Source of the DNA: Rhodobacter sp.
GTDB taxonomy: Bacteria > Pseudomonadota > Alphaproteobacteria > Rhodobacterales > Rhodobacteraceae
DNA length: 64,000 bases
Assembly (NCBI GenBank): GCA_027489175.1
Contig: JAIYAE010000024.1
Span: 1 to 64,000, forward strand
Direction of reading: 5' to 3'
Positions within the stretch are counted from its first letter, which is position 1. Each line of letters begins with the position of its first letter. The notes beneath the pieces were generated by a model that had not been told where the DNA came from, did no database searches, and worked only from the letters and a program-made list of their open reading frames with translations. Below are positions 9,299 through 54,375 of the stretch, one piece after another. The translations under genes were made by a program, and so were the position numbers.

Positions 9299-9406
9299 TG
9301 GCCCTGCCACCCACAGCTTCTGTCCGCACGGGCAGGAGGAATTCCACCCCCGTCCCTTGGCAGCTTCAGGCTTTTGCTTGGCGGCAAGCGGCCTTAGACT
9401 GTGCCC

Positions 9407-10717: not shown

Positions 10718-10720
10718 AGC

Positions 10721-10765: not shown

Positions 10766-10794
10766 GTCACGCCAGGTCAAAAAGCGCCCGCGCA

Positions 10795-10823
10795 TTGACA
10801 ATCGCCCCTGTCCGCCGCAAAGA
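10795..10823 (+). promoter_or_regulatory. Candidate promoter of crcB (possibly leaderless)
   Basis: TTGACA at 10795-10800 is followed by a 17-nt spacer and CAAAGA at 10818-10823. The predicted start site, about 7 nt downstream, coincides with the crcB ATG at 10830. If used, it would give a leaderless message, which agrees with the lack of a clear Shine-Dalgarno sequence before crcB. Confidence 0.4.
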
Positions 10824-10829
10824 CCGGGC

Positions 10830-28354: not shown

Positions 28355-28507
28355 CGGGAACTTCACACTCGGGACGTTTGCGACACATGTTCGCCTGCAA
28401 AGGAAAGTGTGCGGCGCTGCTCCGCGGTTGCAATGTTGTCCGTGCCGTTGGGCCTGGCTTGTCTTTCCCGACCAGAAGCGTAGGATTTAGGCCACAGGAG
28501 AGACCGC

Positions 28508-29239: not shown

Positions 29240-29242
29240 GGG

Positions 29243-29797: not shown

Positions 29798-29931
29798 GAC
29801 GATATCCTTTGTCAGTCATACGTAGACCGCGTTCATCTGGATGCATGATGGGCAAGGCGGGTAGGTGCCGGGCTTTGCCTTGGCTGCCGGGCTTTGGCAT
29901 AAGGGGCTGACCCTTGCCGAAAGGTGCCCCG

Positions 29932-30801: not shown

Positions 30802-30859
30802 GGAACTGATCAGGAACATTCTCCTAGTTTGATCGCATCCGGGCCAAGGGGCCTTTCAG

Positions 30860-32383: not shown

Positions 32384-32604
32384 ACGGGCATAGGTTGTTC
32401 GGTAGCTTGGACCGGGGCGGCACGGGCGCGGTCGTCAAGAGCAAGGGATGCCCGGTACAAGGTTCCGCCGACAGCGGCAGACTGGTCAGGACGCAATGAT
32501 TTGACAGCCTATGCCACCTGTGACCGGGTGAAAGCGCTTGACCTTTGCCCGGCCCTGTCGTTGAAGCACCGCTGATCACGGGTGATCGGCATGGTGGTTG
32601 ATCG

Positions 32605-34440
32605 ATGGAAGAACAGAACAACAAGAACCTGATCCTGGCGATGGTGCTCAGCGCGGCGGTGATGATCGTCTGGTTCGTCCTGTTCCCACCGCCCGAACCG
32701 GTTGCCGATCTGACCACCCCCGCCGGAACCGAAGCCGTGGCGCCCTTGGCGCCTACCGCCGACCCCGCCGTGGACGCGCAGGCCGGTGCTGCGCAATCTG
32801 GCGCCGCCCCCGCCGTGCCAGAAGCCCCGCGCCTGACAATCGACACGCCGAAACTCTCTGGCTCGCTGTCGCTTTTGGGCGGTCGGATCGATGATCTGTC
32901 GCTGAAAGGCTACCGCGAGACGCTGGAGCCCGGGGCGGACACGGTCCATGTCTTGTCACCCGTGGGTGAGGATCTTGCTTACTATTCGGTATTCGGCTGG
33001 CTGCCGGGTTCGGGTCTTGCGGCCGGCGATGTGCCCGACGCGATGACGGAGTGGCAGCTTGCGGCGGGCGACACATTGGCACCGGGCGCGCCGGTCAGCC
33101 TGCGGTGGGACAACGGCAAGGGACTGACGTTCCTACGCGAAATCGCGGTCGATGAAGACTTCATGTTCACGGTGACCGATCGGGTGGAGAATGTCTCGGC
33201 CGGGACGGTGACACTTCAGCCCTATGGGATCATCGCGCGCCACGGACTGCCCAAGTTGCAGAACATCTTCGTGGTTCACGAAGGCGCCATCCAACGCAAT
33301 GATGGCGAGCTTCTGGAAACCGACTATGCCGACATCACCGAACTAGAAGTTGATCCGGCCGAAGGACTTCCGGCACAAGTGACGCAGTCCGAGACGGACG
33401 GTTGGATCGGCTTTACCGACCATTACTGGATGACGACCCTGATCCCCGAGCAGGGCAAGCCCTACAAGTCTGTGCTGAAGTATGTGCCGAACGCGGGGAT
33501 CTACCAGGCCGAGGTTCGCCCGCCCGCCGTCAGCCTTGACGCTGGGGCAAGCAGCACGTCGACCGTGCGGTTTTTTGCCGGGGCGAAGGAATGGGCCACG
33601 ATCCGCGCCTATGAGACCGAAGCTGGTATCCCGGGGTTCCTTGATTCCATCGACTGGGGCTGGTTCTACTTCTTGACCAAGCCGATTTTCGCCGTGCTGC
33701 ACTGGCTGAACGCCCTGATCGGCAACATGGGCCTGGCTATCATCGCGCTGACCTTCGTCTTGAAGATCATTGTGCTGCCGTTGGCCTACAAATCCTACGT
33801 CTCTATGGCGCGGATGAAAGAACTGCAGCCTGAAATGGAAGCGCTGAAAGAGCGCGCGGGCGACGACAAACAGAAGCTCCAGCGCGAGATGATGCAGCTT
33901 TACAAGGACAAGAAGGTGAACCCGGCAGCGGGTTGCCTGCCGATCCTGATCCAGATCCCGATCTTTTTCGCGCTGTACAAGGTGATCTTCGTCACCATCG
34001 AATTGCGGCACGCGCCGTTCTTTGGCTGGTTGAACGACCTCTCTGCACCGGACAGCTCATCGTTGTTCAACGCGTTCGGGCTGTTGCCCTGGGATGCGCC
34101 ACCGACCGGGTCGCTTTTGCACCTGATCTTCATCGGGGTGCTGCCGATCCTTTTGGGGATCACCATGTGGCTGCAGCAAAAGCTGAACCCGGCACCCGCT
34201 GACCCGGTTCAACAACAGATCTTTGCCTGGATGCCTTGGGTGTTCATGTTCATGCTGGGCGGCTTTGCCAGCGGGCTGGTGGTGTACTGGATCACCAACA
34301 ACACCATCACCTTTGCCCAGCAGTATGTCATCATGCGCAGCCATGGGCACAAACCGGACCTGTTTGGAAACATCAAGTCGGGCTTCAAGAAAAAGCCACC
34401 AGAGCCGGTGTCGGACAAGTCCAAGGCGAAGAAGAAGTGA
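32605..34440 (+). CDS. yidC: Membrane protein insertase YidC
   Basis: Encodes 611 residues. An N-terminal membrane anchor (about 9-26) is followed by a large periplasmic domain (about 60-355). The C-terminal insertase domain begins at WFYFLTKPIFAVLHWLNALIG and contains the conserved ALTFVLKIIVLPLAYKSYVS segment with the hydrophilic-groove Arg in VSMARMK. It ends with a basic tail. It inserts proteins such as F0 subunits. The MOSC gene overlaps its stop. The 220-nt gap upstream has TTGACA and TTGACC hexamers but no convincing full promoter. Confidence 0.95.
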   Translation: MEEQNNKNLILAMVLSAAVMIVWFVLFPPPEPVADLTTPAGTEAVAPLAPTADPAVDAQAGAAQSGAAPAVPEAPRLTIDTPKLSGSLSLLGGRIDDLSLKGYRETLEPGADTVHVLSPVGEDLAYYSVFGWLPGSGLAAGDVPDAMTEWQLAAGDTLAPGAPVSLRWDNGKGLTFLREIAVDEDFMFTVTDRVENVSAGTVTLQPYGIIARHGLPKLQNIFVVHEGAIQRNDGELLETDYADITELEVDPAEGLPAQVTQSETDGWIGFTDHYWMTTLIPEQGKPYKSVLKYVPNAGIYQAEVRPPAVSLDAGASSTSTVRFFAGAKEWATIRAYETEAGIPGFLDSIDWGWFYFLTKPIFAVLHWLNALIGNMGLAIIALTFVLKIIVLPLAYKSYVSMARMKELQPEMEALKERAGDDKQKLQREMMQLYKDKKVNPAAGCLPILIQIPIFFALYKVIFVTIELRHAPFFGWLNDLSAPDSSSLFNAFGLLPWDAPPTGSLLHLIFIGVLPILLGITMWLQQKLNPAPADPVQQQIFAWMPWVFMFMLGGFASGLVVYWITNNTITFAQQYVIMRSHGHKPDLFGNIKSGFKKKPPEPVSDKSKAKKK

Positions 34441-35201
34441 CCGCGACGAAGATCGGGAGGGTGGCTCATCTTGTCCGCCACCCGATCAAGTCTGCCGGGT
34501 ATGAGGCGGTAGACGCGGTCACGCTCAACGCTGGTGAAGCCTTTCCGTTCGACCGGGTCTGGGCCGTGGCACATGCGGCCGCGCGCCTGCCAGACCCGCT
34601 GGCCTGGGCGCCGAAGCTGCAATTCCTGCGCGGCTGGGGGTCGGCTGATCTGATGGCGGTGTCCTGCGCGTCTGACCCGACGATAGGCAAGGTCACGCTG
34701 TCGCACCCGCGCCGCCCGACGGAAAGCTTTCACCCCGATGATGCGACGGATGCGGCCCGACTGATCGATTGGTTGCGCCCCCTCTGGCCCGAAAACCGGC
34801 CCGAGCCTGCGCGCGTGGTCCGGGTTCCGGGTCAGGCGCTGACCGACCAGGATCAGCCCTTGGTGTCGATCAATAGCCTGACCTCGCTGGAGGAGCTGTC
34901 GGCGCGGATCGGGCAGGATCTGTCGATTCACCGCTGGCGCGGGAACATCTGGGTGGATGGCTGGGCTCCATGGGCAGAGCTGGGCCTGATCGGGCAGGAC
35001 ATCACGATCGGCGCTGCCCGGCTGCGGGTGGAAGAGCCGATCGGCCGCTGCCGCGCGACAGGGGCAAATCCGCGGACCGGGGTGCTGGATGCCGATACCA
35101 TGGCGGCATTGGAAGCGGGCTATGGCCACACCGATTTTGGCATCTTCGCCCGGGTGGTTGCTGGCGGAGATGTGGCTTTGGGCGATGAGGTGCGGGCATG
35201 A
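34437..35201 (+). CDS. MOSC-domain protein
   Basis: Encodes 254 residues from a GTG at 34437 that overlaps the yidC stop; an AAGAAG stretch just upstream could serve as the ribosome site. The N-terminal MOSC beta-barrel (VRHPIKSAGYEAVDAV) precedes the MOSC domain. The active Cys lies in GRCRATGANPRTG near the C-terminus. MOSC proteins handle sulfur or molybdenum-cofactor sulfur; the substrate is unknown. It overlaps engB by 4 nt and is therefore likely co-translated. Confidence 0.85.
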   Translation: MTATKIGRVAHLVRHPIKSAGYEAVDAVTLNAGEAFPFDRVWAVAHAAARLPDPLAWAPKLQFLRGWGSADLMAVSCASDPTIGKVTLSHPRRPTESFHPDDATDAARLIDWLRPLWPENRPEPARVVRVPGQALTDQDQPLVSINSLTSLEELSARIGQDLSIHRWRGNIWVDGWAPWAELGLIGQDITIGAARLRVEEPIGRCRATGANPRTGVLDADTMAALEAGYGHTDFGIFARVVAGGDVALGDEVRA

Positions 35202-40561: not shown

Positions 40562-40638
40562 GGACCCGTAGCTCAGCTGGATAGAGCATCAGACTACGAA
40601 TCTGAGGGTCGGGCGTTCGAATCGCTCCGGGTCCGCCA
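40562..40638 (+). tRNA. tRNA-Arg (anticodon ACG)
   Basis: A 77-nt cloverleaf: acceptor GGACCCG pairs with CGGGTCC, followed by discriminator G and encoded CCA. The D-arm is GCTC/GAGC. The anticodon stem TCAGA/TCTGA holds loop CTACGAA with anticodon ACG, which after inosine modification reads CGU, CGC and CGA. The T-arm contains TTCGAAT with one wobble pair. No integrated element is seen at its 3' end. Confidence 0.95.
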
Positions 40639-40755
40639 CTGCTCCCTCCTGAAAGATGCATATTTGCGCTGTCTTGGCGCTTGGGGTCAGGACAGTTCAA
40701 TCTGGCGGTTGCAGTCAGCATTGGGTGCCGTATCGGCCTATTGGCGGTCGGAGGA

Positions 40756-43533
40756 TCAGGCGCGGGAACTGGTGAGCGCCGCGAGGATTGCGGACGCCAG
40801 TGAGCCGTTGAAGGCCGCGTCCGCAATCGAAGCGGCTGGCAATCGGTGCTGTGGCGTCGCCACGCCCGCGCGACCGCCAAGGGTGGATCTTGCCAATGAT
40901 GTCCAGCTTCCGCGATAGCCTTGAAGCGCCGCAATACTAGCTTTGTCCTGCGTACTGTGGGTGATGGCTCCCGATCTGGATGGGACGCTACCGACGGGAT
41001 CGACAAGCATAAGGCTTGCCACTGGTATCTGGTTCGGCTGGTCGGGCCGCGCAAGCGCGTCTGCAATCACCGAACCAAGACCAAGGCCGATCAAATGCAC
41101 CCGCCGTTCTTGTTCGGCGGCAAGGCTCTCCGACATCAGGCAACATAGAACCTCATGAACCGCGCCGCCGGACTGAGCGGCAGCAACGCCCGAGGCACGG
41201 ATCAATGACAGGATCGACGCGCCGGCAGCCGGTGCCCGCGCGTTCAGCCAGCGGGTCAGTTCGTCGCCCGTAAGCTGGTAACGGTCCGTGGCTGAGCGCG
41301 CCTCATGCTCCATCCGCGCCATGAAGCTTCGCGCCGCGTCCAGCCCGTGAAAAATGTGGAAGGGATAGATCTTCTGCTTCTTGAAAGGCTCAACCAAGGC
41401 CTTGACGAGTTGCGCAGGTTCGTCTGGGTCAAGCAAAGGATCGTGAAGAAAGATCGCGATGTCAGTGTATTTGGTTCCGTCGCGGGTTTTCTTGCCGGGC
41501 ATTTCGACCTTGTTCGCCAGAAAGACCGCCGTTTCTCGCAAGGATGCAAGGCCGGGCGACAAACCTCCGCTGCGGACGATGCCGTGCTCTTCGGTCTGCA
41601 CCACGTGACCAAGGATCGACGACCTGCGCGGGCGGCTGGGTGCCGGTGCGTTCGTGCCCCGCGCCCGCAGATCAAGCGTGCCTGGCGCGCGGGGGGCAAG
41701 TCGCAGAACCCAGGTGTCGAGGATGTTCTCCGCCCAGTCCTCATACGACCAATGCGCGAGGCCGGGTTGCTTGTTCCACAAACCCCAATTCGGCCCCCAA
41801 GAGTTCTGCAGGATGAAGCCTTTGTCATCATAGCCCAGCAGCACGAAGGCATGGGTGCCAATCGTACCCTTGCGAAAGCGGATGTGTCCTTTCGGCAGCT
41901 TGCCTAGCCAGTTCTGATGCACGCGCGCCGAAACCACGACGGCGCCGGCCTCGCAAATTGCGAGCTGCGTGTCAGAGAGGCGCGGCTCGACCTTGTAATA
42001 GGCGCCAAGCGAGACCTCGCGGGCTTCGATGGCGGCTTCAATGCCAAGAGACCAGTTCAACTCGCCAGGATGGTAGGGGGCGGTTTCAGCGCGGCATGCG
42101 CCATTATGGTAAAATCCCTTGATGGCCCCACGCAGGCTGGTGCCGCCCGTGCCATCATCCAGGAATTCGTCATGCTCTCGCGCGGCTTCGTAGAGCATAC
42201 GGGCGCTGACGACCGTTTCTTTCCGGCCAATGGCGGCAAGCTGGCCGCCGATCACGGTGGCAAGGGCAAACCCCACGCAGGACGCTTCGCCGCCTTGGTC
42301 CCAGACAGGTCCGGAAGGCGCAAGCGGCAGTTTGCTATCAAGGGGCTGCAGCAGGGATGGCCGGTAAGGAAAGTCGCGAAAGTCGCTTCGATCCGGACGC
42401 ACGGCAGAAAGGACCGGGCTTCGTTCCGTGGCGGGAATTGATTCACCGCGCGGCCCCCATGACGGTACCGGAGGTTTCCACCTGCGAGGCGGGGGGAGCG
42501 TTGTGCCATCAGGCCCCGCAATCAGGACGCGCATTGCGTCCTCTTCCGCACACACCAAGGCAAGCGGCACACCACCGTTGAATTCAAGGACTTCGGACCG
42601 ATCAAACGGATTTGGTCGCCCCCCTCGGCCGTGAACCGCGACGACCCGGCCGGTCGAGAGCGAAAACACCGGCGAGCCCGAGTTCCCCGGCAATGTAGTC
42701 GCATCATGGCCAAGCCAGAAGCTCTGCCCCGAGAAGGTCTCGGGCACCGGTCGCGCCAGCGGCGGAAGGGGTGCGGCCCTGCCAGGGGCCAGGCACTGGC
42801 GTCCAAGCTTGCCCCCAAACAACAGTTCAAGCTCGTCCGGCTGCGTGGTGTCGCTGGACGAAAGGGGATAGCCGACGACAGCGACAAGATCCCCCGTCGC
42901 GCCCGGAGCGTCGAGGTCGGTTTCGATCGCCAAAGCGGGAATGGCAGCGGCCGCAGGCTCCAGGTCCGCGACCATGAGGTCCCAGGCGGGATGGGCGCAG
43001 AGGACCTTTGCAAGCTCGAAAGTGCCGCCGGGAAACTGGACGCGGGTCGCCCGATGGTGTCCGACCGTGGGGCGCGCAAGGTATTCGTAGCCGCGCCGGA
43101 TCTGCGCGCCTGCAGCCAGAATGTCCCGCATGAGATGACCAGAGGTCACAATGCGGGTTGGACCCCCTTCAACGCGAAAACAGGTGCCAATCGGCTGAAA
43201 AGCCCCATCGCGTTCAACCTTCATCAGTCCGACGCTGGCTTTGGCCAGGTTCGCGACCTCAATCAGGTCGTCTCGGACGGCGGCCAGTTCTGCCAAGTCC
43301 TGGTCGGTCGGATCAAAAGGTGGAGCATCCAGAAGTAGCACGGGGCGATGGGCAAAAAGGATCTCGCCAGCGCGCAGGCCCGCACGCGTGGGTTGATTCG
43401 CCTGCAACTCGTCGCGCCGAGCGCGAAGAAACCTGCTGCGCTGCGCCACCTCCGCCGATCCCTTTGCGGTGGCTGCAAACAGCCTGGAAATGCGCTCAAA
43501 CCTCTCGGAAAGGCCGTTTGTTGACCCATTCAT
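40756..43533 (-). CDS. Fused trypsin-like serine protease and papain-like cysteine protease
   Basis: Encodes 925 residues with no signal peptide. Residues about 95-335 are a trypsin/HtrA-like domain: His 133 in RIVTSGHLM, Asp 185 in HPAWDLMV and Ser 285 in TTLPGNSGSPVF form a full catalytic triad. Residues about 385-615 are a papain (C1)-like domain with Gln 413 and Cys 419 in WDQGGEASCVGFA, His 561 in IGTHAFVLLGYD and Asn 577 in QNSWGPNWG. The C-terminal 300 residues include VHLIGLGLGS and LMLVDPVGS, resembling an alpha/beta-hydrolase core but with Leu where the Ser nucleophile would be. The gene is divergent from a giant multicopper oxidase across 78 AT-rich bases. Substrate and role are unknown; a regulated cytoplasmic processing protease is a guess. 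Confidence 0.8.
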   Translation of the reverse strand: MNGSTNGLSERFERISRLFAATAKGSAEVAQRSRFLRARRDELQANQPTRAGLRAGEILFAHRPVLLLDAPPFDPTDQDLAELAAVRDDLIEVANLAKASVGLMKVERDGAFQPIGTCFRVEGGPTRIVTSGHLMRDILAAGAQIRRGYEYLARPTVGHHRATRVQFPGGTFELAKVLCAHPAWDLMVADLEPAAAAIPALAIETDLDAPGATGDLVAVVGYPLSSSDTTQPDELELLFGGKLGRQCLAPGRAAPLPPLARPVPETFSGQSFWLGHDATTLPGNSGSPVFSLSTGRVVAVHGRGGRPNPFDRSEVLEFNGGVPLALVCAEEDAMRVLIAGPDGTTLPPPRRWKPPVPSWGPRGESIPATERSPVLSAVRPDRSDFRDFPYRPSLLQPLDSKLPLAPSGPVWDQGGEASCVGFALATVIGGQLAAIGRKETVVSARMLYEAAREHDEFLDDGTGGTSLRGAIKGFYHNGACRAETAPYHPGELNWSLGIEAAIEAREVSLGAYYKVEPRLSDTQLAICEAGAVVVSARVHQNWLGKLPKGHIRFRKGTIGTHAFVLLGYDDKGFILQNSWGPNWGLWNKQPGLAHWSYEDWAENILDTWVLRLAPRAPGTLDLRARGTNAPAPSRPRRSSILGHVVQTEEHGIVRSGGLSPGLASLRETAVFLANKVEMPGKKTRDGTKYTDIAIFLHDPLLDPDEPAQLVKALVEPFKKQKIYPFHIFHGLDAARSFMARMEHEARSATDRYQLTGDELTRWLNARAPAAGASILSLIRASGVAAAQSGGAVHEVLCCLMSESLAAEQERRVHLIGLGLGSVIADALARPDQPNQIPVASLMLVDPVGSVPSRSGAITHSTQDKASIAALQGYRGSWTSLARSTLGGRAGVATPQHRLPAASIADAAFNGSLASAILAALTSSRA

Positions 43534-43611
43534 CGCAAAATCCTTCGATAAATTCGTAAAACTATGCTACCTTGGAAACAATTATTGATAGAGAAATTTG
43601 AGGGACAGTCG
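43534..43611. promoter_or_regulatory. AT-rich divergent control region
   Basis: The 78-nt gap between the peptidase and oxidase genes is clearly richer in A and T than its surroundings (for example AAATTCGTAAAACTATGC and AATTATTGATAGAGAAATTT). It must carry at least one promoter if these genes are expressed. No exact -35/-10 pair with standard spacing stands out. GAGGGA at its 3' end is the oxidase ribosome site. Confidence 0.4.
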
Positions 43612-46600
43612 ATGTTGTACCGGCGTTTCTTGATTCATTTGCTTTTGGGTTTCTTCGCTTCCGTTCTGCCTCTGACCGGGATCGCCCGGGCAGAAGTCCC
43701 GGACGCTTCACCCCCGTTTCCAGAATGTAGCCTTGCCGCGGTGCAGCCCGGCGGCAGTGGGCGGGTGATCTGCGCCGACGTAGCCGCCCTTGACCAAACG
43801 CTTGTCTACAACCGGTTCGGGTCCTTCAACCCATTCGGAATGATCTTTGCACTGCGCCGCGATCTGGTGCCGCTGGACCTGGTCACCGACGCTGTCGCCC
43901 CTTTGACGGCCGAAGATTGCGACCGTGCGACCTTTACCGATGAGCCGATTGCCGGCGCGTTGGAGGCAGGATCGGTCCGGCTGCGCGACTGCAAGCGCCC
44001 GCGCCCCCTGACACTGCGGGTAAATGTTGGCGACACCTTTGTCGTGCGGGTGACGAACCTGCTGACGCCGCCGGCCGATGGCGAAATCTCGCCAGCCGTT
44101 GCCAACGGTCAGAACGTCATCGATTTCTCCAGCGATGTCTGCAAGGCGGGGCCGACCCAAGACTTCAACCGCGAAAGCGCAAGGGAGGGCCTGTCACGCG
44201 GTGATTTTATCGAAGGCCATCACAATGAGGTTTCCTGTCCGTCTGACCCGCCCTTAGCGGAAGCTGAGGGCGAGGCCGGAAATCCAGCGCCGGACGGGTC
44301 GGATTGGCCGAATACCCGGGGCGTGAACTTCGTGCTGCAGGGCCTGACACCAATGCCTCTTGCGGGTGGCGTGGACGTGCATCCCGCCTGCATGGGCACG
44401 GGATCGGTGCAGCCGGGAGAGAGCTTCCTTTGCCTCTACAAGGTAGCCGAAGAGGGCAGCTATTTCTTCGCCTCACCCGCCGCACCCGCAGGTGGAGAGG
44501 GGGATGGCGGGTCGATCGTGCACGGCCTCTTTGGCGCGGTCATGGCCGAACGGTCAGGCAGCCGCACCTATCGCAGCCAGACCAGCCGGGCGGTCTTTGA
44601 CGCCGTGTGGCCACCCAGCGCAATTGCCCGGCATGCGCGGTCCGGTCTGCCCGATTATGAGAAAACCGATCCCCTCACCGGTATCCCCTATCTAAACATG
44701 GCAAGGGCGATTGACGCCCCTCAAGCCGACTTCGGCACCGCGAAACTGGCTGAAATAGTCCATGCCGATCTCAATGCGATTGTTTGGTGCGACCGGTCGC
44801 AAGAACCTTATGGCTGCGTGCCCAAAGATGCCGCCGCAGGCGCGTCACCTGATCCCTATGCCACGGGTGATACTGCTGCCGAGTTCGATGCCTTCCGTGA
44901 ATTCTCGATCTTCTTTCATGATGAGCTGAAAACCTTTTACACTAGAAATTTCGAAGAACTTCAGCGTTTTGGCCAACTTGCGGGCGTCAAGGACGGCTTT
45001 GCCATCAACTATGGTGCCTCGGGCATGGGGTCGATCCTTTTGGCCAACCGCAAAGGCATTGGCCCGGCAGCTGACTGTATGGAATGCCTTTATGAAGAGT
45101 TCTTCCTGACGTCTTGGGCGAATGGCGATCCGGCCCTTCTGGAGTGGTTTTCCGACGATCCGTCAAACGTGCACCATTCCTACATGAATGACCCGATCGT
45201 GTTCCGGAACTTCCACGCGGGGCCGAAGGAAACCCATGTCTTCCATCTGCATGCGCATCAGTGGTTTGCAGGCAATGACCCGAACCGGGGCGCCTATCTG
45301 GACAGCCAGACGGTCGGCCCGCAGCAAAGCTTCAGCTACAACATCTATCACGGCGGGACTCGCGGTCTGAACGGTGATGGCGATGGCTGGTGGGACACGC
45401 AAGGCTCAGGCAACCGCAACAGGACGGTTGGGGATTCGATCTTTCATTGCCATCTCTACCCGCATTTCGCGCAAGGCATGTGGGCGCTTTGGCGGGTCCA
45501 TGACGTGCTGGAGGATGGCACGCGAAAGCTGCCCGACGGGCAGGAGGACCCCGGTCTGTCGCTGACCTTCAAGCCGTCCGAAGCACACAAGCGGCTGGGC
45601 AGTGTTGATCGGGTGACAGGGGCCTGGTTGGAGCAGGGGACAGCGCCCGGCGCAGGAGAGGGCACACCGATCCCCGCGCTGATCCCCCTGCCGGGAGAGC
45701 CCTTGCCCCTTCTGCCGACCTATTCACAAGGGTCGGCGGTGGGTATGCCAGGCTACCCGTTCTTCATTCCGGCCGAGCCTGGACATCGCCCGCCGCAAGC
45801 CCCATTGGACATCGCGCGCGACCTTGGGCCGCAGCCCGCAGATGAAGAAGCCGACACGCGACTTGCAACCGGGGGCTGGCTGGACGGCGGCCTGTCGCGA
45901 CACATCGTGAAAGATGGGACGGGGCGCGAACTCGGGTTTCCCTTGCCGCCGGCCATTGCTGCGATGCTTGAAGACCCAGGCACCATTCCGGCCACAAACG
46001 ACGAAGAGCGGCAGGAACGGCGCGTGGCTTTGGCGCAGCAGCTGGTGGCAAAGGCACTGGCCTTGGGTGACATGAGCGCGCATCTCGTTTCGGCGCGGAT
46101 CGAGCGGCTGGCAAACGAAGGCACCGCCCTTGAACGCGCGGCCATGGGTTTTCACTTCAACGGCCGGGTCTTCACCCCCGACGATCCCGCTGCAGGGGGT
46201 GCGAACCTTGCCCTCCTTGATGCGCAGGGCACGCCTGTCACCGGAATGGAGCCGGTTACGGCAGGTGGCACGGATTCCGGCAGCGGTCAGTATCCGACGC
46301 TGATTGCTACCTCTCCGGACAATTCGCTGCCAACCCGGAAACCGGTGTTTTCGGTCAACGGATCGGCTCCGAAGCCAGGCGCGCCCTTCGCCGATCCCTG
46401 CGGATCACCCGGAGACCTGGCGGCGGCCTATGGCGCGACAGGCCTCTCGCTTGCCTTTGATCCGCTCTACCGGTTGACCGGCGGCGTCGAAGAAGCCTAT
46501 GGCCGTGATCCCTTTGTCACTGGCTTTCGGAGGTACGAAGTCTCGGCCGTGCAGCTTGACCTGATCGTGAACCAGGCCGGATGGCACGATCCGCAGGCCC

Positions 46601-49600
46601 GCATCAATGTTCTGACCCAGGTTTCGGACAGCTATAAAGCGGGCGACGGCGCGATTTCTCCCTTCATCAGCGACAAGGAAGAGCCGTTCTTCTTCCGCGC
46701 GCTTTCGGGTGAATGCATCGAATTCCGCCACACCAACGAATTGCCGAAAGACATGGAACTGGATGATTTCCAGGTCAGGACGCCAACGGACACGATCGGT
46801 CAGCACATCCACTTGGTGAAGTTTGATGTCACTGCGTCCGACGGTTCCGGCAATGGCTGGAACTACGAGGATGGGACATTTGCGGCCGATGAACTGATGG
46901 CACGGAAATGTGCCGCGGTCCTTGTGCTGGACGAAGCGGGCAATCCGGCAGAGTTGAGCGAGAACGGTCCTTTCGACGCCGCGAAATACTGCGAGAACGG
47001 CAAGGTCAGAGAGGAATGGCACGACATCTGGCGACGGGAGCTGTCGGTTGAACGTGATCTGTTCCAGACGACAGCCCAGCGCTGGTTCGCCGACCCGATC
47101 CTGTCGGTGGACGAGGACGGGACCCCGCGCGACCGGACCCTGAGGACCGTCTTCACGCATGACCACTTTGGGCCGTCCTCAATCCAGCAACACGGCTTTT
47201 ACTCGGCCCTGCTGATCGAGCCGGGGGCGATCGTTGCGGCCGATGCCGATCCGGACAGCCTTCAACGGGTGAACCTGCGGATCTGTGCCGTGAAGGGCAC
47301 GGTGGCGGATCCCGATGCAGGCTGCACCGATGCGCTTGCGGTCGGGCCGGATGACAATGCAACGCTTGCGCTTGATCAGGTTGCCTTCGGAACGCCGGAA
47401 TGGGTCGGCGCGCAAAAGCGCATCCTGAACCTGAATGGCGGTGCGACCGATCCCTTCCATCCTGACACCCGTGAATTCGCGCTGGCGATTGCCGATTTTG
47501 CGTTGCTTTACGACCCGCGCGACCGCCGGTCTGTAGCCGATCTTCGGGCAAGCCTGGGCCTTGGGTCTGACGGCATACCCGGGGTTGAAGACGGCGAGAT
47601 CACCTCAAAGGGCATGGAGCAGCTGCTGTGTGATCTGAGGTACTACCGCTCACCCTATGCGCTGAACGTGAAGTGCGGCGCTGATTTCATCAGCGACCGC
47701 GACTTCACGGCAGACGCGTCGAGCTGGTTTCAGAACGGGGCAGAGGGCTGGACACCGGCGTGGATTGCCGGCGGCAAAAGCCGCGACGACATCCACGCGG
47801 GAGACTATTTTGGCAGCCTTTTCGTGCCCGGTGAACTGACGGCATTTCAGGCGCATCTTATCAGCTACCGGCAAAAGGCAGCCGGAATGTATGGCAAGGC
47901 GGTTGGTGCAACTGTTGCTACGATGGCGGGTGCGGTCGCAGGGCCGGAACGGCCCGAAGCGATCTCGGTCGACCACCACGATCCCTATCTGGTCAACTAC
48001 CGCATGGCAGCAATTCCGGTTCGTATCGGCGACAAGGCCGCTGGCCGGACAACGCCCTCCCCTAGCTGCGCACCCATGGGAATGACCCGCCAGGGCGAGC
48101 CTGTTCCCGATAGCGCAGTGGTCGAAGCGCTAAAGGCAGGGTCGTTTGGCAGATGCAGCCTGAAGTATCAGCTTCTTGGCGAAAAGGGCGATCTGGCCTC
48201 GGTGTTCAGTTCCAAAGTTCACGGCGACCCCGAAACGCCCGTCTTCGAAGCCTATCAGGGCGAGCGGCTGATGTTTCGCATGATCCAGGGCGCGCAAGAG
48301 GTTCAGCACATGTTCCAGATTGCCGGTCAGCCGTTCCGGCGGAACGTCGATCAGGCTTTCTCGGCGGCGATGCTGCCGCTCGACACGGCCTTTGGTCCAA
48401 ACCATCTGTTGCGGACAGGATGTTTCAACGCAGCCAATCGCGGCAGGCCGGGGGAGTATCTGACCTGGACCGACCAAGGCCTGAACGCCTTCCCGGCCGG
48501 CAGTCCCGAAGCTGATTACTGGACGGCGAGAGAGAAAACTCTGGCCGAATGCGACAACATCGAAGGCTTCACCTTCGCGCAGGAAATCGGGATTTCCGAA
48601 CATTTCGAAATGCGCGGATCGCTTCGGTCTGACGTCGGTGGGTCGCTTGAGGGGGTATCCGCAGCGCCTGGTGTTAAGCTTCGCTTCAGAACCTTCGATG
48701 GCGCGAACGGCCTGCCTGTAGACCGCGTGACTGAAACGTCGTCGGACTACCTTTACTCCTTCGGCACCACCGATGCGATCTGGAACGGCGCCTGGGGGCT
48801 GCTGCGAATCTTCGAGGGAACTGCGGCCGCTGATCCATCCACATTCAACCTGTCAGACCTGACCGACGCAACCAATGTGACGGCAATTGGCAACCGGTTG
48901 GCCGGCCCGCCGATGGTGCCACCGGACGAGGTGATCGTTGAGGGGGCCACTGGTGGGGACATCGTCACTCAGTCCAATCCCACCGGCGCATTGACTTGCC
49001 CGATTCCGACGGCCAGCGAAGTGGCGACCATCCGCCGCGCGGTGATTGCCGCGGTCGAAGCGCGCAAGGTCTGGGGCGAAGGCTCGGTCCGCTATGGCGA
49101 CACGCGGTATGACCCCGATGCGCTGGTGCTGGCGCTGGTGGATCCCGGCGATTTGGGTGTCGATGCGGATGCGGGCTGGTCTGGAACCTGGCCTGAAATA
49201 TCCACAGCGGCGGTCCATGCAGCTGTTCTGGCGGGCTATCCCGACGGGCCGCAGCCGTTCGTGCTGCGCGCCAATGCTGGCGACTGCCTTGAGGTAAGGC
49301 TGGTGAATGCGCTGGAGCCGTCGCAACGTGGCGCGCTTCGTGACCTTCTTGGGGATGCCTGGCTGCCGCCAATCACCGGGCTGAACGCCGACCCCCAGCC
49401 TGTCGTGCCCGAACGCGATGCGGCGGGTGTTCTGCGCGCGGACCTTGCATCGCTTGCCGATGTGGGAGCGGACAAGGGCGGGCTTCGGCCGTCTGCGAGC
49501 CTGGCACTGATGTTCGGCATCCCCAGCACCGAGCTGGTAAGCTCAATCCCCCTTGGCACCGGCTTCAACCGGCGGGCCCTTTCCCCGGCGACGGGGGGAC

Positions 49601-51018
49601 TTGCCGTAGTGTCGGATGTGATCGGCCTTTATGCCGGGCGTTACCGGCTTGACCTCAAGACGGACGGAGACAGTCTTGGGCTCTTGCGCCAGGGGCTTGT
49701 CGATGACGCCATCGGCCGCGCGAATGATGCTGTGGCGCTGGCCGGTGCGGCGGATGATCCGCTGGCCTTGGCCTATGCCGAGGCGGCGCGGAATCCAGCG
49801 CTGGGGCCGTTCTTCCTGGATCCGGCTGTGCCCGGGATCACGATCGACGCAAGTGGAGTTGCGGCCCTGGAGCCTTCGGCAGAAGACACTGTCGCAGGTG
49901 GGCTTGTGCGCATCGCTGGCCATCCGGTCGTGGTCGATTTCCTTCCCGGAACCATCAGTCCCGAGGTTGATGCCGCCGTGCCGGAGGGGTTCAAGTTCAA
50001 CGGTTCTACCGCCGATCTTGTCCCGCTTCGCCCCGTCTGTGATGGGGCCCCCGCCTGCGAAGCCGCGCTTGAGACGTGGTATGCGGCCTTCCGCGCCCTG
50101 GTGGAGGACGAGCGTGATCTTGCTCTGGACGAAAGAACCCATTGGATTGCCTATGCCTTCGGCGCCACCCCGATCCGCGCTTTGTCCGATCCCATCGGGC
50201 AAGAGGCACATGGTCTGATCGGTGTCGTCGACATCGTCCCGCGCCAATGGGCCCTGACCGAGGCGCATGGGTTCGTTGCGCTGTCGGCAGATCATCGCGG
50301 GCGGCCGGTCGTCCTTGCCCGACCGATGCCTGAAATGTCGGACGGCCTCTGGGCTGACTTTACCGACACGGATTCCGATGGCAACGAACGCAGCATCCGT
50401 GAATTCGTGCTGTTCTACCGGGACGGCATGAACCTTTGGGACAGCGCCTCGCGCATCCGCTGGAAGGTGGATGGCCGGCCGGTCTTTGCGCCATTCAATG
50501 TCAACGGCATTCCCGGGCGCGATCTTGCCCAACCCGTGCCCGATTGCCCGGTCTGCGATGACAGCTATGACCGGGGTGACAAGGGGGTGAACTACCGCTC
50601 GCCCGCCTTGGCCTCGCTCTTGTCGGACATGCTTGGCATCCAGATCGAAGCCAGCGACGACTTCAACGTCCGGGTTTTTCCAGAGGACTATGTGACCTGG
50701 GACAAGGGGATCAATCTGATGGCCTGCGAAGGCCAGCATGTCGTCATCCGCCTCGTCCATCCTGGGGGTCGCGCCCGGCAGCGGGCCTTTGTGATGAACG
50801 GCTATAACTACGCAGACCTTTTCCCCGGCTTTGGCTTCCCGCGCGCGGCCCTACTGGCCCCTGGGAAGTCGCTGACCGCCTGGCTTGATCCGGCGGCCAT
50901 CAAGGGCAACACCGGTTTTTGGCATGACGGCCCGACCTCGATCATGTCAGGCGGTGTCTGGGGCAGGGTCACCGTGGCACCGCCAGGAGAGTTCGGATGC
51001 CCAGCCGCAGCGCCCTGA
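43612..51018 (+). CDS. Giant exported multicopper oxidase (MnxG/MofA-like)
   Basis: Encodes 2,468 residues from ATG 43612, chosen for GAGGGA upstream and the signal peptide that follows it (cleavage near GIARA-EVPD); an ATG at 43564 is in frame but less likely. The four copper-ligand motifs are present, in unusual order. The site C-type motif HLHAHQW is at 545-551 and the site D-type HCHLYPHFAQGM at 612-623. Only later come HIH at 1065-1067 and HDHFGP at 1183-1188 (site A/B type), followed by QQHGFYSALLIEP. Further cupredoxin-like segments occur at about 130-320 (ligands degenerate), 1560-1600 and 2380-2460. This size and motif order resemble giant Mn(II)-oxidising oxidases, but the substrate is inferred. 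Three accessory genes follow with overlapping starts. Confidence 0.85.
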   Translation: MLYRRFLIHLLLGFFASVLPLTGIARAEVPDASPPFPECSLAAVQPGGSGRVICADVAALDQTLVYNRFGSFNPFGMIFALRRDLVPLDLVTDAVAPLTAEDCDRATFTDEPIAGALEAGSVRLRDCKRPRPLTLRVNVGDTFVVRVTNLLTPPADGEISPAVANGQNVIDFSSDVCKAGPTQDFNRESAREGLSRGDFIEGHHNEVSCPSDPPLAEAEGEAGNPAPDGSDWPNTRGVNFVLQGLTPMPLAGGVDVHPACMGTGSVQPGESFLCLYKVAEEGSYFFASPAAPAGGEGDGGSIVHGLFGAVMAERSGSRTYRSQTSRAVFDAVWPPSAIARHARSGLPDYEKTDPLTGIPYLNMARAIDAPQADFGTAKLAEIVHADLNAIVWCDRSQEPYGCVPKDAAAGASPDPYATGDTAAEFDAFREFSIFFHDELKTFYTRNFEELQRFGQLAGVKDGFAINYGASGMGSILLANRKGIGPAADCMECLYEEFFLTSWANGDPALLEWFSDDPSNVHHSYMNDPIVFRNFHAGPKETHVFHLHAHQWFAGNDPNRGAYLDSQTVGPQQSFSYNIYHGGTRGLNGDGDGWWDTQGSGNRNRTVGDSIFHCHLYPHFAQGMWALWRVHDVLEDGTRKLPDGQEDPGLSLTFKPSEAHKRLGSVDRVTGAWLEQGTAPGAGEGTPIPALIPLPGEPLPLLPTYSQGSAVGMPGYPFFIPAEPGHRPPQAPLDIARDLGPQPADEEADTRLATGGWLDGGLSRHIVKDGTGRELGFPLPPAIAAMLEDPGTIPATNDEERQERRVALAQQLVAKALALGDMSAHLVSARIERLANEGTALERAAMGFHFNGRVFTPDDPAAGGANLALLDAQGTPVTGMEPVTAGGTDSGSGQYPTLIATSPDNSLPTRKPVFSVNGSAPKPGAPFADPCGSPGDLAAAYGATGLSLAFDPLYRLTGGVEEAYGRDPFVTGFRRYEVSAVQLDLIVNQAGWHDPQARINVLTQVSDSYKAGDGAISPFISDKEEPFFFRALSGECIEFRHTNELPKDMELDDFQVRTPTDTIGQHIHLVKFDVTASDGSGNGWNYEDGTFAADELMARKCAAVLVLDEAGNPAELSENGPFDAAKYCENGKVREEWHDIWRRELSVERDLFQTTAQRWFADPILSVDEDGTPRDRTLRTVFTHDHFGPSSIQQHGFYSALLIEPGAIVAADADPDSLQRVNLRICAVKGTVADPDAGCTDALAVGPDDNATLALDQVAFGTPEWVGAQKRILNLNGGATDPFHPDTREFALAIADFALLYDPRDRRSVADLRASLGLGSDGIPGVEDGEITSKGMEQLLCDLRYYRSPYALNVKCGADFISDRDFTADASSWFQNGAEGWTPAWIAGGKSRDDIHAGDYFGSLFVPGELTAFQAHLISYRQKAAGMYGKAVGATVATMAGAVAGPERPEAISVDHHDPYLVNYRMAAIPVRIGDKAAGRTTPSPSCAPMGMTRQGEPVPDSAVVEALKAGSFGRCSLKYQLLGEKGDLASVFSSKVHGDPETPVFEAYQGERLMFRMIQGAQEVQHMFQIAGQPFRRNVDQAFSAAMLPLDTAFGPNHLLRTGCFNAANRGRPGEYLTWTDQGLNAFPAGSPEADYWTAREKTLAECDNIEGFTFAQEIGISEHFEMRGSLRSDVGGSLEGVSAAPGVKLRFRTFDGANGLPVDRVTETSSDYLYSFGTTDAIWNGAWGLLRIFEGTAAADPSTFNLSDLTDATNVTAIGNRLAGPPMVPPDEVIVEGATGGDIVTQSNPTGALTCPIPTASEVATIRRAVIAAVEARKVWGEGSVRYGDTRYDPDALVLALVDPGDLGVDADAGWSGTWPEISTAAVHAAVLAGYPDGPQPFVLRANAGDCLEVRLVNALEPSQRGALRDLLGDAWLPPITGLNADPQPVVPERDAAGVLRADLASLADVGADKGGLRPSASLALMFGIPSTELVSSIPLGTGFNRRALSPATGGLAVVSDVIGLYAGRYRLDLKTDGDSLGLLRQGLVDDAIGRANDAVALAGAADDPLALAYAEAARNPALGPFFLDPAVPGITIDASGVAALEPSAEDTVAGGLVRIAGHPVVVDFLPGTISPEVDAAVPEGFKFNGSTADLVPLRPVCDGAPACEAALETWYAAFRALVEDERDLALDERTHWIAYAFGATPIRALSDPIGQEAHGLIGVVDIVPRQWALTEAHGFVALSADHRGRPVVLARPMPEMSDGLWADFTDTDSDGNERSIREFVLFYRDGMNLWDSASRIRWKVDGRPVFAPFNVNGIPGRDLAQPVPDCPVCDDSYDRGDKGVNYRSPALASLLSDMLGIQIEASDDFNVRVFPEDYVTWDKGINLMACEGQHVVIRLVHPGGRARQRAFVMNGYNYADLFPGFGFPRAALLAPGKSLTAWLDPAAIKGNTGFWHDGPTSIMSGGVWGRVTVAPPGEFGCPAAAP

Positions 51019-52781
51019 TCGCCGGGTGGCTGGTGCTGATCGCCTGGGCCGCGCCAGCCCAAGTGACCGATGAGCGGGGCGATCTTCAGGCGGCGCTTCT
51101 GGCGGATGTGCGCTTTACGCCGGAAGCCGACATCGCGCCGGGGCAGCCTTTCGGGATAACCCTGCAGTTTTCAAGCGCTGCTGGTGCAGAGCCACCGGCA
51201 GGCCTTGACGTCTCGGCCTGGCTGCGCCCGGTCAGCGCCACCAACTTGCCATGCGTCGATGCGGCCCGGGCCTATCGCAGCACGCTCAGCCTGCCCACAG
51301 GCGCGGTCAGTCTGAACGGGCCCGTCCTTGCCGTTGCCATGGCAGACGGTGCGGTGACCTTCGCCGATCCCGATCTTGACCTGGCAAGCGCAAACATCAT
51401 CGCAGCGGCGAAACTGGCCCAGGCACCGGATGCGCTGGTGCCCGACACCGCGCAGCAACGGGTGCTGGCTGTGCTGAAGGGTCAGGGTGAAATCGTTGCC
51501 ATCGAGGCCTTGACCGGCCGGGTTGAGGTTCTGGCGAGCGGATTTGACCGCCCAGAAACCGTCATCCCCGCGCCTGATGGCGGCGTCTGGCTTCTGGACG
51601 CCGGCACGTCAGAACTGTTCCGGATCATGGCGGACGGGACGGTGACGAAAACTGCCAGCGGCGTTTCAACGCTCGCGGCGGCCCCCGGCGGCACGGTGGG
51701 GGCTTACTCTGGTGCTGGCAAGAGCGCACTCTTCGATCTGGCCACCGGACATGAGCTGGCAAGTTTTCCTGGGAAGGCGACGGTGGATGCGGTGATCCCG
51801 CTCAATGATCCATCAGGCGTATCTGGTATTGCCCTGCTTTCGGACGATCAGCTTGATCTTTTCTACCGTGATGCGCCGGACACGAAGTTTTCAGTCAAGC
51901 TTGCAGCACCGGCAACCCGGGCTTTGGTGCCAGCGGATGGGCGGTTCCTCTTCGCTTTCGATCCAGCAGGCGGACCTGTTTCGATTGTCGATACGGTGCG
52001 GGGGCGGCTGGTTCAGGCGGTGGGGGCCGATGTGCCGATCATCGAGATCACCTTCTCTGCGCGGGGCGCCTTTCTTTTGCGGGCAGACCAGCAAAGTGTT
52101 GGCGCGATCTTCTTTGACACCATCCAATCCGACGAACCCGCTGTCGTGCGCGAAATCGTGTTGGGCTCGCCAGCGGCAAATGCGTTGCCGGCAGGGGCAT
52201 GGATGGCCCCCTTGTCCGACGGGCGAGAGGTCGTGGCCATTCATGCGGGCAGCTATTCGGGCTTTGTGTTGCACGACAACCCGGCGATGAGCGACACGTC
52301 TTGGCCAATGACGCGCGTGCAGTTGCGAGGAGGTGAGCCAAGGCGGATTGCCGTGATTGACCGGTCCTTGCGTGAAACGGCGCCCGGCGTCTTTGCTGGC
52401 TCTGCGCTCCTTCCTGCAACCGGTGCAGGGTGGGAGCTTGTGCTGACCACGGGCCTTGGCGGGCAGACGATGTGCTTTGACGTACCGACACTGGCAGACG
52501 TACCGGCTGCGGCCAGAGGCCCCGGCATGATCGTGCCAGAGCGTGGCGGAGAGACACTCGGTCTGGCTTTGGTCGGGCCGGATGGCGGCCCCGCGGGTTT
52601 GGTTACGGTGCGCCTGACCTTCAGTGCGCCGCAAGCCAATTGGCGCCGTTCGGCTGAAGTCACGACCGACAAGGACGGACGGGTCACAACGCGTTTTCGT
52701 CTGCCGGACACGCGACCACTGATCATCACGGCCGAGGCTGACGGTGGCCGGGCCTTTCTGCCCATCGCGATTGAGGAATGA
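50997..52781 (+). CDS. Exported propeller-like protein of the oxidase operon
   Basis: Encodes 594 residues with a signal peptide ending near APAQ (about residue 22). The middle part (about 140-460) has repeated beta-strand units such as GEIVAIEALTGRVEVLASG and DGGVWLLDAGTSELFRI, consistent with a six- or seven-bladed propeller of the NHL/YncE kind. The last 90 residues look like an Ig-type beta domain (GLVTVRLTFSAP). No catalytic motif is seen. The start overlaps the oxidase stop by 22 nt, so it is translationally coupled to it. It may be a scaffold or docking partner for the oxidase. Confidence 0.7.
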   Translation: MPSRSALIAGWLVLIAWAAPAQVTDERGDLQAALLADVRFTPEADIAPGQPFGITLQFSSAAGAEPPAGLDVSAWLRPVSATNLPCVDAARAYRSTLSLPTGAVSLNGPVLAVAMADGAVTFADPDLDLASANIIAAAKLAQAPDALVPDTAQQRVLAVLKGQGEIVAIEALTGRVEVLASGFDRPETVIPAPDGGVWLLDAGTSELFRIMADGTVTKTASGVSTLAAAPGGTVGAYSGAGKSALFDLATGHELASFPGKATVDAVIPLNDPSGVSGIALLSDDQLDLFYRDAPDTKFSVKLAAPATRALVPADGRFLFAFDPAGGPVSIVDTVRGRLVQAVGADVPIIEITFSARGAFLLRADQQSVGAIFFDTIQSDEPAVVREIVLGSPAANALPAGAWMAPLSDGREVVAIHAGSYSGFVLHDNPAMSDTSWPMTRVQLRGGEPRRIAVIDRSLRETAPGVFAGSALLPATGAGWELVLTTGLGGQTMCFDVPTLADVPAAARGPGMIVPERGGETLGLALVGPDGGPAGLVTVRLTFSAPQANWRRSAEVTTDKDGRVTTRFRLPDTRPLIITAEADGGRAFLPIAIEE

Positions 52782-53314
52782 CCATGCCGACGCGACTTGG
52801 GGTCCTTGCGACCGTGTCTTTCGCCGCTTTGGCCAATTGGGCGGCGGCCGAACAGCTGTCACTGCCCGATGCACCTGTAACGGATGCTTATTACCAGACC
52901 GAAGGCTTCGTTTCGCGTCTGCATGCAGCCGGAACGGTGATCGTCAGTTTCAGTTTCATCGAATGCACGACGCTGTGCCCGATCACAAACGTCATTCTTG
53001 CCGAAGTGGACGACCGGATCGTCGCCGAGGGGCTGCCCTTGACCATCGTGACACTCACCATCGACCCAGTGAATGACACGCCGGAAAAACTTGCCGAGGC
53101 GGCGCGCGCGGTCGGCGCGAGCGATCGATGGCTATGGCTGACCGCAGCGCCCATGGACACCCTTCTACTCCTGGACAGCCTTGGTCTTCCGCCAGGGCCG
53201 ATCGAAGAACACAACCCGATGCTGTTGATTGGAAATGTGGGCACTGGTGAATTTCAAAGGCTTGTTGGTCTGCCCGAACCCGATGGGCTTATCGACCTTG
53301 CCATGGGTTTCTGA
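52778..53314 (+). CDS. SCO1/SenC-family copper chaperone
   Basis: Encodes 178 residues with an N-terminal signal or anchor segment. The thioredoxin-like SCO fold keeps the copper-binding CTTLCP motif (CxxxC) in SFSFIECTTLCPIT. The third ligand His is probably in IEEHNPMLLIG. It also has TLTIDPVNDTPEKL, a typical SCO segment. SCO proteins deliver copper to cuproenzymes, so this one probably metallates the giant oxidase. It overlaps the neighbouring genes at both ends. Confidence 0.88.
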   Translation: MTMPTRLGVLATVSFAALANWAAAEQLSLPDAPVTDAYYQTEGFVSRLHAAGTVIVSFSFIECTTLCPITNVILAEVDDRIVAEGLPLTIVTLTIDPVNDTPEKLAEAARAVGASDRWLWLTAAPMDTLLLLDSLGLPPGPIEEHNPMLLIGNVGTGEFQRLVGLPEPDGLIDLAMGF

Positions 53315-54375
53315 TGGCCTGGCGCCATGTCCTTGCCGCCGCCCTGCTCGCCAGCCCGTCAGGGGCGTGGGAGGTGCCGGACAGTCTGTATTTCACCGGA
53401 CAGGGCACAACTGCGGTGATTGCGGCGGGTACGGTGCCGGCGGATGGGTCCAGATTCGCCTGCGCCGGTTGTCACGGCGCTGACGGGCAGGGCAAGGCTG
53501 AAGGGGCGACGACGATCCCCCCCGTGACATGGGACGCCCTGACGGCACCAACCGGGTTGCGACCAGCCTATGACGCGACAAGCTTTGCCCGGGCGGTTCA
53601 GTCCGGGGTCGGGCCGGATGGGCGGGCGCTCTCGGCGGGAATGCCGCGATACATGTTGGATGACGCCCAGTTGACCGGACTGATCGAAAGCCTGAAGCAG
53701 CTTCAAGCCATCGACCGAAAGGCCTTTGGCCCACGCGACCTGAGGGTCACGGCGGACGTCAATGACCCGCGTTTGCGCGGGTTTGCAGATGCGGCGCGGG
53801 CCTTCAATGACCAGGGTGGCGCCTACGGGCGCAGCGTCGCAATCGTGAAGGAAGGTGATGCCCTGGCCTTGGACGATGTCACGGGGGCGGCGCTCGGCGT
53901 TCTGGCTGCGACTTCCGAAGCCCTGCTTTTCGACCATATCGTTGCCGATGGCCACCGCCGCATCCGGTGGCAAACGGCGCTTTCATCTGCAGAACGCGAC
54001 TTTCACTTGCGGCAGCGCGGGCTTCTTCATGGCGACGGCGCGCGCGTCGTGCTTTGGACCCGTGGCAGTGCAGCCCCACCGCCCCCCGAGACGGTTGACA
54101 TCCTTTATGCCGATCTGGCGGTCGCGGCACCGTCGCTTGGGGCAATGCTCGAACGGTCGGTGACGGTTTACCTCGCATCTCCGGATGCAGCGGTACTGGA
54201 CGCGGCGCTGCGCGATCCGCAGCCGATTTCCTATGTCGAAGGCTACCTTTCGGGGTTGGCTCTTGGCGCGGCGCTGACCGCTGCTGGCCGCAGTGCAGGA
54301 CAAGAGGCGCTGCGACGCCGACTTCAAGACAAAACCGTCGCATTCCCGATTTCGGTCCTCCGGATCGGCGACTGA
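53314..54375 (+). CDS. Exported mono-haem cytochrome c
   Basis: Encodes 353 residues, starting on the last base of the SCO gene stop. A signal-like N-terminus (WRHVLAAALLASPSGA) is followed by one haem-binding CAGCHG at about residues 50-55. A candidate axial Met lies in MPRYM near residue 110. The C-terminal 230 residues do not match a cytochrome domain; DILYADLAVAAPSLGAM and LALGAALTAAG resemble a periplasmic binding domain of the ABC-type branched family. It may pass electrons from the oxidase to the respiratory chain and sense a ligand. Confidence 0.8.
   Translation: MAWRHVLAAALLASPSGAWEVPDSLYFTGQGTTAVIAAGTVPADGSRFACAGCHGADGQGKAEGATTIPPVTWDALTAPTGLRPAYDATSFARAVQSGVGPDGRALSAGMPRYMLDDAQLTGLIESLKQLQAIDRKAFGPRDLRVTADVNDPRLRGFADAARAFNDQGGAYGRSVAIVKEGDALALDDVTGAALGVLAATSEALLFDHIVADGHRRIRWQTALSSAERDFHLRQRGLLHGDGARVVLWTRGSAAPPPPETVDILYADLAVAAPSLGAMLERSVTVYLASPDAAVLDAALRDPQPISYVEGYLSGLALGAALTAAGRSAGQEALRRRLQDKTVAFPISVLRIGD

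Follow-up and report, generated by a model that had tools for sequence, protein, structure and literature searches.

The window analysed here, 64,000 nucleotides of a Rhodobacter sp. contig, contains a gene for a giant multicopper oxidase in which the copper motifs C and D precede A and B. The initial annotation took this order for a departure from laccase-type oxidases. The locus therefore raises two questions: what kind of oxidase is this, and what does it oxidise?

The gene, its copper motifs and its family

The gene (43612..51018, + strand) is a single open frame of 2468 residues. The mechanical ORF starts at 43564 and gives 2484 residues, but this ATG was rejected as the start because the ATG at 43612 has a ribosome-binding-like GAGGG 7 bases upstream and is followed by a hydrophobic, signal-like N-terminus (residues 1–27, MLYRR...ARA, 43612..43692, + strand; read by eye from the translation). 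The earlier description of a 2468-residue, exported-looking chain with C and D ahead of A and B agrees with this translation. Simple scans detected neither a sigma-70-type promoter nor a terminator between the oxidase and the divergent peptidase gene, and in the downstream region they gave a single terminator-like site, where 3.9 were expected, and no promoter.

Site C reads HVFHLHAH (H542, H545, H547, H549; HLHAH at 545–549), site D HCHLYPHFAQGM (residues 612–623, with the axial-type Met623), site A HIH (1065–1067) and site B HDH (1183–1185, within HDHFGP starting at 1183). All 12 ligands expected of a four-copper oxidase are present (T1 His, Cys, His and Met, and the eight trinuclear His), on the assumption that the laccase motif scheme applies to this protein. 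In a MAFFT alignment (fast setting) of 81 sequences, which comprises 67 sequences from the scan described below (11 duplicates were dropped), the window and 13 from other genomes, each of the 12 ligands is identical in 80 or 81 of the 81 homologues, the remaining cells being gaps; the scan rows were chosen via a D-motif pattern, which makes the conservation of site D partly a matter of construction, while sites A, B and C were unselected. The copper motifs are therefore not due to chance.

The NCBIfam model NF041487 (copper_ox_MnxG, 1894 positions) matches the oxidase with an E-value of 1.1e-138. The score, 463.6 bits, is below the curated equivalog cut-off of 3100 bits, which sets the protein apart from the MnxG of the Pseudomonas putida GB-1 type; three other members of the family (L138, L060 and L106) score 715.8, 806.8 and 648 bits, also below 3100, so we take the cut-off to delimit proteins of the Pseudomonas type and not the whole family. 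In Pfam, Cu-oxidase_2 gives a weak match only (E 0.18, below its cut-off). The sole PDB sequence match at E-values up to 10 is 9bxa (E 1.5e-66), the MnxG of Bacillus sp. PL-12 in the Mnx H340A complex. In this alignment sites C/D and A/B are in the same C-D-A-B order, and the columns of the T1 and trinuclear ligands are shared; 9bxa reads Ala in the column of H618, as expected from its H340A mutation. The Rhodobacter protein is thus a full-length MnxG homologue, complete and enlarged: it is about twice as long as the Bacillus MnxG chain in the PDB (1227 residues). Near its C-terminus (about residues 1120–1140) 9bxa has a HTFHLHGH sequence which is absent from the 2468-residue oxidase and may be the fifth ("F") copper motif to which the available text of PMC3618234 refers.

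The operon and the possible substrate

The oxidase gene is the first of four genes on the same strand that overlap head to tail. The second (50997..52781, + strand) overlaps the oxidase gene by 22 bases and encodes a 594-residue propeller-like protein, with homologues in 12 of 18 relative loci. Its own Pfam matches are all below cut-off and the propeller assignment rests on weak matches of its L117 homologue (e.g., Lactonase, E 0.0077, below cut-off). The third (52778..53314, + strand), which overlaps the second, encodes an SCO1/SenC-type copper chaperone of 178 residues (PF02630, E 9.5e-11, above cut-off). The fourth (53314..54375, + strand) encodes a c-type cytochrome of 353 residues, homologous to MofC (Cytochrom_C, E 1.4e-5, above cut-off, and a weak Peripla_BP_6 match below it).

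The mnxG operon of P. putida GB-1, as it appears in the available part of PMC11409713, consists of mnxG, a YVTN beta-propeller gene, two SCO1 genes, a gene for an ABC-type substrate-binding protein with a cytochrome c domain, and SurA. The order mnxG, propeller, SCO1, cytochrome c/ABC-type protein is the same in the Rhodobacter operon, where the propeller, SCO1 and cytochrome c genes of the Pseudomonas form are found, the propeller by weak homologue matches. By the published gene order, however, GB-1 has two SCO1 genes and SurA, whereas the window has one SCO1 gene, no adjacent SurA and a divergent peptidase gene. Bacillus MnxG works with MnxE and MnxF, which it requires according to the portion of PMC5622069 consulted; the other three genes of the Rhodobacter operon belong to other families, and neither MnxE nor MnxF is among the four operon genes, judging from the families found.

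Among the matches listed, all three downstream genes occur in 39 of the 54 scan loci in which the frame is closed and followed by 5 kb of sequence. By a position rule, the three-gene tail is incomplete or absent in the other 15: only the propeller gene is missing in L091 and L125, only the propeller gene is present in L122 and L124, and none of the three lies downstream in 11 loci (e.g., Nitrospira, Nitrosomonas europaea, Meiothermus and Sphaerotilus). In L137 the three accessory genes are divergent from the oxidase.

The homology, the conserved ligand set, the domain repeat (see below) and the gene order are direct observations, from which we infer the copper content, the geometry, the substrate and what the accessory genes do. 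Within domain 2, the T1 copper (H542, C613, H618, M623) would accept electrons from Mn(II), and probably from Mn(III) too; the electrons would travel via H612-C613-H614 to a trinuclear centre at the interface of domains 2 and 3 (H545, H547, H612, H614, H1065, H1067, H1183, H1185), where O2 would be reduced to water, the Mn oxide forming outside the cytoplasm. The SCO1 protein would supply copper to the oxidase, and the MofC-like cytochrome and the propeller-like protein may be accessory redox or scaffold components. We consider it rather probable (about 0.65) that the protein is an exported MnxG-type multicopper oxidase with a permuted six-cupredoxin ring, and that it oxidises Mn(II).

An enzyme of the same architecture could act on another substrate, such as Fe(II), Cu(I), iodide or an organic reductant. 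The alphaproteobacterial clade to which the protein belongs is distant from the characterised MnxG, multicopper oxidases accompanied by SCO1-type proteins can also act on other substrates, as in the iox cluster of Iodidimonas with its three SCO1/SenC genes (PMC9415286, in the part available), and the role of MofA in Leptothrix ochracea, with Mn or Fe, is described as open in the accessible text of PMC11412304. However, IoxA, at 62 kDa, falls into another size class by its published description (same partial source), and it is a demonstrated Mn oxidase that the protein most resembles among those characterised and with which it shares its gene order. Another substrate is thus unlikely, even if it deserves serious consideration. 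Several points count against the MnxG-type, Mn(II)-oxidising reading: the score far below the NF041487 cut-off, the low TM-scores to 9bxa (see below), the lack of MnxE and MnxF among the four operon genes, the 15 loci without the complete three-gene tail, and a second Mn-oxidase candidate in the same genome, a large heme peroxidase. This 2873-codon frame (contig C24, about 27735–34535) has two animal-type heme peroxidase regions and is possibly a MopA-like Mn oxidase. Another multicopper oxidase candidate, an 835-codon frame, is found on contig C31 (106783–107088) of that genome.

Relatives, neighbouring peptidase and distribution

The scan of genome_contigs with an alignment of the catalytic region gave at least 592 pattern matches, at least 570 of them confirmed, and 80 were kept. 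Among the matches listed, the D-motif pattern located the ORF in 78 of the 80 loci, and all four motifs are present in 73 of the 80 relatives, always in the order C-D-A-B (72 by pattern, and L126, which the D pattern missed through one changed residue). L070 and L109 reach the contig edge before site B, the fourth His of the C pattern is missing in L137, L138 (HVFHLHANQ) and L143, and the ORF of L142 starts late. In L141 the frame (8783–10903) ends at 706 codons and includes sites C and D only; it is shorter than its relatives and possibly interrupted. The permuted order, presented at first as unusual, is already published for Bacillus MnxG (PMC3618234, available text) and is, as far as these sequences go, the norm of the MnxG family.

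Of the scan frames, 68 are closed, with lengths of 1556 to 2906 residues among the matches listed. The suggestion that the Rhodobacter protein might be the longest of its kind has to be abandoned, since the longest relative among these matches has 2906 residues, versus 2468. In a quick tree (81 rows, 401 columns) the window falls in a 45-row alphaproteobacterial clade (SH-aLRT 99), in which closed frames have at least 2173 residues, except L086, L094 and L142. Further alphaproteobacterial members fall outside this clade, and deep placements are unsure because of several long branches. The giant MnxG homologues of Paracoccus, Roseivivax, Jiella, Methylobacterium and others resemble the window protein in having full frames of 2173–2906 residues, the C-D-A-B order and mostly the same operon, but they differ from it in loops and neighbours. 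In Methylobacterium sp. B4 (L094, 8651–13816) the oxidase frame stops at 1721 codons, which is shorter than in relatives and may reflect an interruption. Two loci of Jiella avicenniae (L073 and L074), on different scaffolds, are identical across the 22,430 bases compared, each with a 2906-residue oxidase.

The gene divergent from the oxidase (40756..43533, - strand) encodes a protein of 925 residues with a trypsin-like region (116–300, Pfam E 3.7e-14) and a papain-like region (409–584, E 1.5e-6); inspection by eye revealed no signal peptide in it. Among the matches listed, the region upstream of the oxidase contains a full-length peptidase of this type in 10 of the 80 scan loci, in addition to the window. 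L095 and L099 have a shorter homologue there, with Pfam trypsin confirmed in L095 only, and in L077, L080, L082 and L084 the place of the peptidase is taken by a divergent protein with caspase-like and hydrolase-like motifs (a Pfam caspase match was found in L084, the one tested). The remaining loci have unrelated upstream genes, such as ATP-synthase-type genes and AAA ATPases, and many end a short distance upstream. The peptidase is not exclusive to these loci: 47 of 390 genomes of the order match it somewhere, mostly over the papain-like region or a short segment. Of these 47 genomes, 39 do not belong to the 14 that carry the oxidase, and in two of the other eight (G664 and G789) the match is on another contig.

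The oxidase itself has a patchy distribution. In the sample of the order it was found in 14 of 390 genomes, including that of the window (in G789 as a 95-codon frame, E 2e-4), in the sample of the phylum in 4 of 398, again including the window's own (G188 with an E-value of 2.1e-4), and among near relatives in 4 of 101, the window's own included, two of these being broken copies. A tblastn search of a plasmid collection gives 30 matching records; in 11 of them, from Paracoccus, Roseivivax, Shinella and Methylobacterium, a single place covers 80% or more of the query. In the three plasmid regions inspected, a trypsin-like or serine peptidase gene is divergent beside the oxidase; SCO and c-type cytochrome genes are named in two of the three, and the downstream genes of Roseivivax marinus are called "hypothetical". 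The oxidase is labelled "hypothetical protein" in 13 of the 15 plasmid records listed, the other two having no annotation there. These labels, together with scores under the curated cut-off, mean that genome surveys of manganese cycling may undercount giant oxidases.

In a genome of the same genus (L062, 3693–5001; 81% complete, about 430 contigs) the flanks match the window at about 89–91%, and the peptidase gene and the first ~1023 oxidase codons (window 40639–46679) are replaced by about 1.3 kb, with one junction at the 3' end of a tRNA-Arg gene (window 40562–40638); this could be an exchange at the tRNA or an assembly error. A second genome of the genus (L063, about 7901–8441) has a small oxidase remnant, with domain 1-like and domain 3-like pieces in different frames. 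Is the window copy then inactive or decaying as well? The loss of the part before about residue 1024 in one congener, the small remnant in the other and the patchy distribution over the order would be compatible with decay, but the window frame runs through 2468 codons without interruption and keeps all its ligands, and the three overlapping downstream genes are open too, which makes a decaying copy improbable.

Domain architecture and comparison with MofA

AlphaFold2 models of the two halves of the oxidase (residues 36–1215, from 56 sequences, and 1269–2468, from 57 sequences) both have a pLDDT of 78.1, with pTM values of 0.88 and 0.87. In Foldseek searches of the PDB, the best match of both is 9bxa (N-terminal half: E 6.1e-28, 1194 columns, TM 0.38–0.39, rmsd 7.7; C-terminal half: E 9.8e-23, 1055 columns, TM 0.35, rmsd 9.9), and ceruloplasmin ranks directly after it for the C-terminal half; TM-scores are low and rmsd values large, so the fold assignment rests on the E-values and the extent of the matches.

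Profile-profile comparisons match odd domains with odd (D1-D5 7.9e-13, D3-D5 1.7e-8, D1-D3 1.4e-5) and even with even (D4-D6 3.6e-6, D2-D6 3.4e-5, D2-D4 1.5e-4), which points to a chain of three two-domain units. A D1-D6 match (E 4.6e-6, spanning just 19 residues) counts against a clean odd/even picture and is read as the final strand of domain 5 included in the D6 cut. The oxidase can thus be divided into six cupredoxin domains, with a two-domain unit present three times, all on the + strand and with approximate boundaries. Domain 1 (about residues 48–320, 43753..44571) resembles domains 3 and 5 and has no copper motif. Domain 2 (about 380–740, 44749..45831) holds sites C and D (H542, H545, H547; H612, C613, H614, H618, M623), and domain 3 (about 962–1210, 46495..47241) sites A and B (H1065, H1067; H1183, H1185), both being supported by motifs, the 9bxa alignment, conservation and the repeats. 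Domain 4 (about 1280–1740, 47449..48831) resembles domains 2 and 6, domain 5 (about 1795–2215, 48994..50256) was delimited from inserts, model and repeats, and domain 6 (about 2250–2468, 50359..51015), without a copper motif, from the repeats.

Ceruloplasmin also consists of six cupredoxin domains in three pairs, with A/B in domain 1, C/D in domain 6 and extra T1 sites, and the trinuclear centre of such a ring lies between domains 6 and 1. The Rhodobacter oxidase differs, with A/B in domain 3 and C/D in domain 2. Shifting the chain ends of a ceruloplasmin-like ring yields C-D-A-B, so the permuted order needs no novel geometry, and the most plausible reading of the protein is a circularly permuted ring of six domains, of the ceruloplasmin type, whose trinuclear centre would form between the adjacent domains 2 and 3. 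Of the proposal that this centre must form between domains in a different arrangement, the interdomain site is thus retained, as a probable feature, while the special geometry is superfluous.

The roughly 1280 residues that follow the last copper motif, also remarked upon at the outset, are indeed there, but they make up domains 4 to 6, whose insertions are enlarged and in part helical, rather than a new appendage. Compared with nine short relatives, the oxidase has 21 insert blocks of at least 12 residues (765 residues, the differing signal region counted in). The idea that one extension at the C-terminus accounts for its length was rejected, the extra residues being scattered over these blocks. 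The largest inserts, 1311–1436 and 2017–2164 (148 residues, in domain 5), consist mostly of helices in the model and might be regarded as small subdomains.

Domain 4 contains a set of residues, E1563, H1566, E1663, H1664 and E1666, kept in 77–79 of the 81 sequences, the rest being gaps except for one Asn at 1664. By eye, the T1 position of this domain lacks a Cys; in the profile-profile ranges, H1566 aligns with His542, a T1 ligand of domain 2. E1563 and H1566 have counterparts in 9bxa, and H1664 seemingly has none in Bacillus MnxG, according to a partial alignment via L138. We propose this set as a candidate metal site. The invariant set and a motif order unlike that of laccases might suggest a new copper centre devoid of the classical trinuclear cluster, but all the classical ligands are present and the motifs follow one another as in MnxG, for which a structure of the complex is available (9bxa), so that such a centre is very improbable.

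The likeness to giant Mn(II) oxidases noted initially holds for MnxG and not for MofA. The genome of L. discophora CCM 2812 encodes both an MnxG-type protein (L138, 1601 residues) and a mofA-like ORF (L155, 1645 residues). L138 was dropped as a candidate MofA, its locus having no MofC-like or SCO1 gene by profile, and L155 fits: downstream of it come genes of the FKBP type and of the cytochrome c type (the latter below the Pfam cut-off) and an SCO1 gene, a neighbourhood which corresponds to the description of mofA-mofB-mofC in the available text of PMC8218464. The motifs of L155 are in the order A-B-C-D, the ordinary order given for MofA in the available text of PMC3618234, and Phe replaces the axial Met in its D motif (HCHILGHEENDF). 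BLASTP of the C-D-A-B window oxidase against L155 detected no similarity (best E 0.82). The accessory proteins are homologous: the window cytochrome matches the MofC-like protein of L. discophora (BLASTP E 2e-15; profile 1.1e-37, four-sequence set) and the window SCO1 its SCO1 neighbour (BLASTP E 9e-17; profile 8.1e-40, four-sequence set), from which it follows that two unrelated oxidases share accessory genes. Provided that L155 is mofA, these comparisons refute membership of the MofA family, and despite the similar size class and the shared SCO1 and MofC-like neighbours, the chance that the window protein is a MofA-type giant oxidase is negligible.

Openly licensed literature on MnxG in Rhodobacteraceae, Alphaproteobacteria or Paracoccus yielded no paper describing the giant clade, which is weak evidence of absence. 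What appears to be new is modest: an alphaproteobacterial clade of "giant" MnxG, sometimes plasmid-borne, in which a divergent peptidase gene recurs and a Glu/His set of domain 4 is invariant. A bolder and rather doubtful idea is that the giants of this clade belong to a manganese-mineral cassette that moves horizontally (the oxidase with its propeller-like protein, SCO1 and MofC-like cytochrome, and a divergent multi-domain peptidase that would regulate or mature the oxidase), in which domain 4, having lost its T1 Cys, would have become a dedicated metal-substrate site made of E1563, H1566, E1663, H1664 and E1666. The analysis extends a demonstrated family of Mn(II) oxidases to a group of alphaproteobacteria, where copies are mostly called "hypothetical protein" in the plasmid records listed. 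It provides a clear example of circular permutation in a six-cupredoxin ring, and the domain 4 residues, outside the classical copper sites, are testable candidates for a site where the metal substrate may bind.
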